Of a stretch of DNA of 64,000 nucleotides, positions 40,165 through 41,512 are shown piece after piece. This DNA comes from Crocinitomicaceae bacterium. Lineage in GTDB: Bacteria > Bacteroidota > Bacteroidia > Flavobacteriales_D > Parvicellaceae. Under the pieces are notes generated by a model. The model did not search any database and had not been told where the DNA came from. It saw only the letters and a program-made list of their open reading frames with translations. Both the position numbers and the translations under genes were made by a program. The stretch is taken from NCBI GenBank assembly GCA_002723085.1, contig PBNK01000035.1:62001-126000 (forward strand), given 5' to 3'. Position 1 is the stretch's first letter, and every line of letters starts with the position of its first letter.

Positions 40165-41392
40165 TTAATTACAAGCATTAAATCTTAATTGAAATTCAGG
40201 AATATCCTGTTTTAACTTTTTACAATGGCTTTTAGATTTTACAGTTCCATTGGTAATCGCTTTATTTATATACAGGTTGGCTTTTTCAAAATTTTCAGAC
40301 CAAAAATAGGCATCTGCTAAATTTGCACTTATTAAACCTGTTATTTTTTTATTAATTCTTGCTTTTTTATCATTTAAATCACTACTCTTGAGTTCTTCCT
40401 CCCATAAATCGATAGCTTTTGCTAACCTTTCTTTAGCTGTGGCCTTATCTCTATCGTAAGACATTGAGGCGTATGCCGATTGAGCATGGGTAAGCGCATT
40501 GACTAGGTTATCATAAGTATAATCTTGATGTTTTTTTGGCACATAAATTTCCAATGTTTCTGTTTTTTTTTGGGTAACCCACCTTTTCTGTTATGCTATT
40601 ATTAACCTTATCAAAAATATTAGTCCAAAGGTCTTTTTGAATTTGCACCCATGGGTCAATTTCCTTTTCTATATTATCGATTCTCCAAAGTTCATAATCA
40701 TATTCTGTTTTCCCAGAGTATAATATTTTTTCAGAAAATTTAGAGTAAAATTTTTCTTCATAGAAAATATTTCCTTGATAAGAAGCTTTTATGACTAATG
40801 GCATTTTAAAATTTGCTTTTACAACATAACTTTTTACACCTGTTGTATTATCAGAAATATAATCACCCTTAATGCTAGAAATTTCTAGACCTAAATTATC
40901 TATCTTAACCTCAAATCCTGAGCTTGCTGAATTAAACCCCTCGATATTAATTCTTTTTAACACGTTCAATTGATTGAAGGCTTTTGTTAGCACAGTAGGA
41001 AATAGAAAGTATGGCTCAGGATATGTTGGCCATATCGGTTCGCTAGGCTTTGTTATTTGCATTCCTTGATTTGTTTTTTCTTTCCATAGACTTAAAGAAA
41101 TTAGATGTTTTTTTCTCATTTCTTTGTTCGCTTTTTCCCAGTTAGATAATTTAACTTTTTGGTGAGCTTCAGCTGAATCAACGGCAATTTGGTGAATCAT
41201 TTTTTGTCGTTCATTATTAACTTGAAAAGAACTATCATAAATAACATTAAAAGTTTTTATTGATTTATCTAAATAATATTTAGGCAACTGTATATATTCA
41301 AAATTTATTTTATGGTCTGTAATAAACTGTGATTTTACGTTAAAACAAATTAAAACTAAAATAATTACTATTGGATTTTTAAATTTTTTCAT
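40165..41392 (-). pseudogene. Exported protein gene interrupted by a frameshift at an A9 run
   Basis: Two minus-strand frames make one gene. The first (from 41392) encodes a signal peptide (ending NVKSQ) and about 270 residues up to GYPKK, then shifts frame at nine consecutive A (plus-strand T run, 40563-40571) and stops at 40511. Removing one A joins GYPKK to TETLEIYVPKKHQDYTYDN in the second frame, which stays open to 40165 and ends in a TPR-like helical region (ANLADAYFWSENFEKANLYI). The joined product has 408 residues. It may be a sequencing error, a young pseudogene, or a gene read by slippage. Function unknown. Confidence 0.75.
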
Positions 41393-41512
41393 ATTGAATA
41401 TATTCGATTATTAAATTAAGAGTTGGGTTTAATCTAAAGATAATAAAATTAGATATTATTTGGCCATAACAAATTTATTGTACTTTTATTATAACTAACT
41501 TTATAATTGATA

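Follow-up and report, generated by a model that had tools for sequence, protein, structure and literature searches.

A one-base frameshift at a nine-A run in a single-copy gene of a Crocinitomicaceae bacterium

The interrupted gene and its predicted product

The window, a stretch of 64,000 nucleotides from the genome of a marine Crocinitomicaceae bacterium, contains on its minus strand a gene that is divided over two overlapping reading frames. The upstream frame (40511..41392) starts at the ATG at 41392, reads ...GYPKKNRNIGNLCAKKTSRLYL and terminates at a TGA at 40513-40511, giving a protein of 293 residues. Judged from the reading frame and from homologues, it comprises 276 residues that belong to the protein family, with a signal peptide, a long helix and a beta domain, followed beyond the GYPKK motif by 17 off-frame residues (NRNIGNLCAKKTSRLYL) that run up to the premature stop (40511..40513). 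The other minus-strand frame is free of stops from 40590 to its own stop at 40165. Homologues and a weak Pfam TPR_2 match assign to its 40165..40563 part 132 family residues plus the stop codon, which form the greater part of the last beta strand together with a TPR-like helical tail. At the frame break lies a run of exactly nine A residues on the minus strand (40563..40571, T on the plus strand), spanned by the minus-strand sequence GGTTACCCAAAAAAAAACAGAAAC, and a second, shorter A7 run (40531..40537) is present inside the overlap of the two frames. Skipping one A joins both frames into a protein of 276 + 132 = 408 residues. The sequence-only reading had described this split at A9 and the fused 408-residue product, and its coordinates and counts are correct. 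In the divergent intergenic region, TAAATTTG (window 41470-41477, minus strand) is a candidate promoter element that resembles the -7 element of Bacteroidetes, TAnnTTTG.

An AlphaFold2 model (pLDDT 93) was built on the intact homologue from the single-cell genome AG-349-I04 (L028), with 38 homologues. It shows a signal-peptide helix (residues 2-17), two strands (20-31 and 44-51) and a 50-residue helix, followed by six strands (157-224), helices at 227-267, a strand at 272-284, and a C-terminal part of five helices (291-405) that are arranged as TPR hairpins. The frame break corresponds to approximately residue 273, where strand 272-284 begins, and according to the model a truncated form would lose this strand plus the whole helical tail. 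Because a strand and an entire domain would be lost on truncation, two useful forms of the protein are unlikely, and the short product is probably inactive.

Export of the protein, as proposed earlier, is consistent with its signal-peptide-like N-terminus, and the description of its tail as TPR-like agrees with weak TPR matches and with the helical hairpins of the model. The TPR resemblance of the modelled tail is one of arrangement only; the Pfam TPR_2 score of 17.6 bits lies below the gathering cut-off of 27, outside membership, and a sequence-profile search of the PDB retrieves only designed TPR proteins, over ∼30 residues. Among the Pfam and NCBIfam models none matches the protein above its cut-off, and the family is outside the coverage of both collections. 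A search for fold neighbours in the PDB reveals no significant match (best E 0.003, TM 0.12). The beta/helix part shows a weak resemblance to LptE and HpaA.

Intact homologues and the age of the shift

A scan of GTDB genomes reveals 61 homologous loci, nearly all in Flavobacteriales and many of them labelled Crocinitomicaceae. At 54 of these loci the match is unbroken and stays in one frame over 1,100 bases or more; in L079 and L082 the frame aligns only in part. The relatives L028 and L030 (the latter from SAT175), which represent this Crocinitomicaceae/Flavobacteriales family, are the same protein as the window gene across its whole length, but they are intact whereas the window gene is broken. 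Both window halves match L028 contiguously, at residues 5-274 and 272-403. The sequence at the junction is GYPEKSEMTEVYVVKK, GYPKKTENTEIYMVKK or similar in the closest intact proteins, with no gap relative to GYPKK/TETLEIYVPKK in the window, and the pattern GYPxK-x-E-x-TE[IV]Y of the nearest homologues aligns ungapped to GYPKK/TETLEIY. None of the 61 loci is broken at the A9 site, and no relative was seen in which the tail is a free-standing gene. Since the two parts together cover the same homologous proteins from one end to the other, which is more than expected by chance, the two halves are one gene; the full-length homologues for which a search had been advised do exist. By homology across ∼400 amino acids the window gene belongs to the family, but its frame is broken at A9 instead of being a single open one.

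These fused homologues argue against two separate genes, the second starting from TTG 40554 or from a later ATG. The TTG start does yield a frame of 129 residues. Against it, the first ATG in the downstream frame lies 49 bases beyond the upstream stop, and a helical tail made without a signal peptide would remain cytoplasmic, so that two genes are scarcely credible.

Over the 45 bases surrounding the site, no A run exceeds seven in any of 39 intact homologues, the maximum per homologue ranging from 1 to 7. The lack of a long run in intact homologues, together with the ungapped junction, identifies the split as an insertion of one base that is restricted to this genome, and the simplest difference between the window gene and its relatives is one added A. 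Conservation of the slippery run among homologues, by which functional transcriptional-slippage genes are recognised, is not observed, so that a programmed slippage site loses its principal support from comparison.

Provided that the ninth A is real, the gene combines a disrupted frame with intact orthologues, as pseudogenes do. The relaxed constraint that follows disruption in pseudogenes is not seen. Compared with four outgroup proteins, the window tail shows similarities of 63.6, 61.4, 60.6 and 59.1%, and the tail of the intact L028 shows 63.6, 62.9, 62.1 and 60.2% to the same four, so that in this comparison no faster evolution or relaxed constraint of the window tail was found. Identity between the window protein and L028 is 70% over the tail and 42% over the first part; for the latter, the window protein shows 42–47% identity to these relatives, comparable to L028. 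It is established, then, that the locus holds one gene with a one-base insertion that is absent from relatives, and that its downstream part has not been relaxed. The lack of relaxation after the break implies that the shift is very recent, or not in the DNA, or bypassed; complete conservation of the tail is equally expected from an error or from a functional bypass.

Homopolymers, assembly error and slippage

An assembly or consensus error would mean that the gene is intact, with A8, in the organism itself and that the ninth A is an artefact. This is in line with the fully conserved tail, which shows no decay, with the draft state of the genome (46 contigs) and with the location of the shift, homopolymers being the classic site of sequencing and consensus indel errors. 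In addition, the homologue L073, which comes from a different public assembly, has several indels resembling sequencing errors. The window and 385 kb of other stretches from the genome, 449 kb together, were screened for overlapping frames on the same strand with a homopolymer in the overlap, each part having at least 60 codons, which makes the screen not exhaustive. It yielded 25 candidate pairs. A Pfam check, which covered most of the pairs without a nearby ATG in the second frame plus some others, revealed either distinct adjacent genes, such as ABC transporter/TsaD-family protein, TrkA/RmlD, LysM/YceG and PSP1/GldH, or a second half without support, and the A9 gene is the only convincing frameshift among the 25. 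A broader screen for split genes, not tied to homopolymers, gave 68 candidate pairs in a genome in which TTG and GTG starts are frequent. Coding A/T runs in open genes of the same 449 kb number 177 of length eight, 40 of length nine and 4 of length ten. Since ∼40 other coding runs of nine or ten leave their genes open and the homopolymer screen reveals no other frameshift, a generally indel-prone assembly is unlikely. These clean frames mildly favour a real, very recent one-base mutation over an assembly error, with a probability of roughly one half, and the insertion would accordingly reside in the DNA and not in the assembly. An assembly or consensus error is less probable, but it is the most serious competitor.

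A different possibility is that slippage at the run is used, either by RNA polymerase, producing both protein forms, or during replication, switching the gene on and off between A8 and A9. The earlier suggestion that A9 is long enough for RNA polymerase slippage matches published work: 15–25% frameshifting was measured on the A9 run of tssM3 from Yersinia pseudotuberculosis, and tssM1 of Citrobacter rodentium is rescued by an A11 run (PMC4256274). Nine is also the run length at which selection against slippage becomes visible in many genomes (PMC1088944). A similar pattern is present here. Relative to synonymous-codon shuffles (100×, 380 genes), sense A8 runs are not depleted (130 observed, 126 expected), A9 runs are mildly depleted (31 against 44, sd 5.2) and runs of A10 or longer strongly so (4 against 25, sd 3.4), as expected of runs that slip. 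The mild avoidance of A9 is the effect expected of replication and transcription slippage alike (PMC1088944). The conserved tail would fit such use as well. On the other hand, the run is conserved in none of the 39 intact homologues and no homologue is split there. Moreover, with 31 sense A9 runs in 380 genes, about one per 12 genes in the sampled stretches, a run arising by chance is nothing unusual. In an AT-rich genome whose genes so often contain long A runs, an occasional split at A9 is to be expected and does not by itself indicate a switch. The full-length form, furthermore, needs one A lost or two gained, whereas the published cases mainly add A. With two useful forms already improbable from the model, use of slippage is unlikely. 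Its more specific version, in which an A8/A9 contingency site or a slippage bypass peculiar to this lineage yields truncated and full-length exported protein side by side, is rather improbable; if it were true, cells of one population would differ in a surface or periplasmic protein.

Like the window gene, tssM1 (A11) and tssM3 (A9) are bacterial genes with an A run near the frame transition and a conserved downstream domain, but their slippage was measured and their products were tested, whereas the run in the window is private to one genome and known from its sequence (PMC4256274). The genes catalogued by Baranov et al. 2005, which have disrupted frames and 9A/9T runs, resemble the window gene in an AT-rich genome, a disruption at A9 and an under-representation of long runs in coding sequence; the functional cases among them, however, are mostly IS elements with comparative support, unlike this single-copy, non-mobile gene without a conserved run (PMC1088944). 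Ordinary homopolymer-indel pseudogenes and reading-frame transitions, as in the GeneTack survey (PMC3711429), also have a one-base indel and intact orthologues elsewhere, and the only difference found is that the downstream part of the window gene has not yet decayed. A term-based literature search for homopolymer phase variation in Flavobacterium found no paper.

Programmed ribosomal frameshifting was considered in view of an A_AAA_AAC heptamer, which is positioned in the zero frame at the run. Such a heptamer promotes a -1 shift, which here leads into the third frame and soon to a stop, whereas the downstream frame requires +1 or -2. In addition, no stable RNA structure lies downstream (fold z = +0.9) and the site is not conserved. 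With the wrong frame and no structure, the heptamer was rejected as a programmed site, and ribosomal frameshifting is extremely improbable.

The favoured explanation is that a single-copy gene, encoding an exported protein of two domains that occurs in Crocinitomicaceae and other Flavobacteriales, was hit by a very recent insertion, with replication slippage in the A run adding one base to the DNA. The main product would be the 293-residue truncated protein, which would lack the helical tail as well as the last beta strand and is probably inactive. RNA polymerase slipping on A9 may perhaps still supply a minor amount of full-length protein, as a passive rescue, and the A9 run would not be a dedicated switch. 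Where an error, a pseudogene or a slippage switch had been put forward, the halves are shown to be one gene, and a conserved or programmed switch is not supported, given that the run is absent from intact homologues, that A9 is commonplace and that stimulatory signals are lacking. Overall, the split is judged to be a one-base homopolymer frameshift of the ordinary kind, affecting an apparently dispensable gene, and its significance is chiefly a caution against reading A9 splits as switches. If the population proves to hold A8/A9 mixtures, they would represent natural homopolymer variation in uncultured marine Flavobacteriales.

Distribution of the gene and other broken copies

A search of the genome reveals one copy of the gene, and a paralogue serving as backup copy is absent. 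No plasmid match was found. The gene is patchily distributed, with a match in 21 of 60 relatives and none in the only other genome of its genus, and it is apparently dispensable. In the sister species G001 the neighbouring divergent AI-2E-type transporter is conserved (72% identity), and the site beside it is taken up by other genes, one of 706 codons and two small ones; no remnant of the family gene is present at the transporter site in this genome, which is only 73% complete. The 706-codon gene and the two small genes, all exported (L110 937-4127, G001:C123), have the appearance of a gene replacement at a fixed site.

Four family members, L029, L070, L073 and L078, are broken in other ways than the window gene, and some of these breaks may be sequencing errors. 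L029 has a frameshift, apparently caused by a single A added to a shorter A run. In L070 (3850-4520) a large internal deletion has removed much of the middle and joined the N-terminal region to the tail, with the frame broken. The indels in L073 (3960-5230) are several single-base ones despite ∼80% identity to an intact relative, which suggests, from the sequence, sequencing errors in that assembly. L078 (2126-5091), on a contig of 2.2 Mb, carries a tandem duplication of the first part of the family protein, in which the second copy is frameshifted. Finally, at L066 (3740-4430 of CAJIYN010000001.1, from the SAR86 bin FRAM18_bin311) a cysteine-desulfurase-like frame runs straight into a family fragment that is very like L027 from the same project (FRAM18_bin196), a fusion that looks like a chimeric read or a misassembly.
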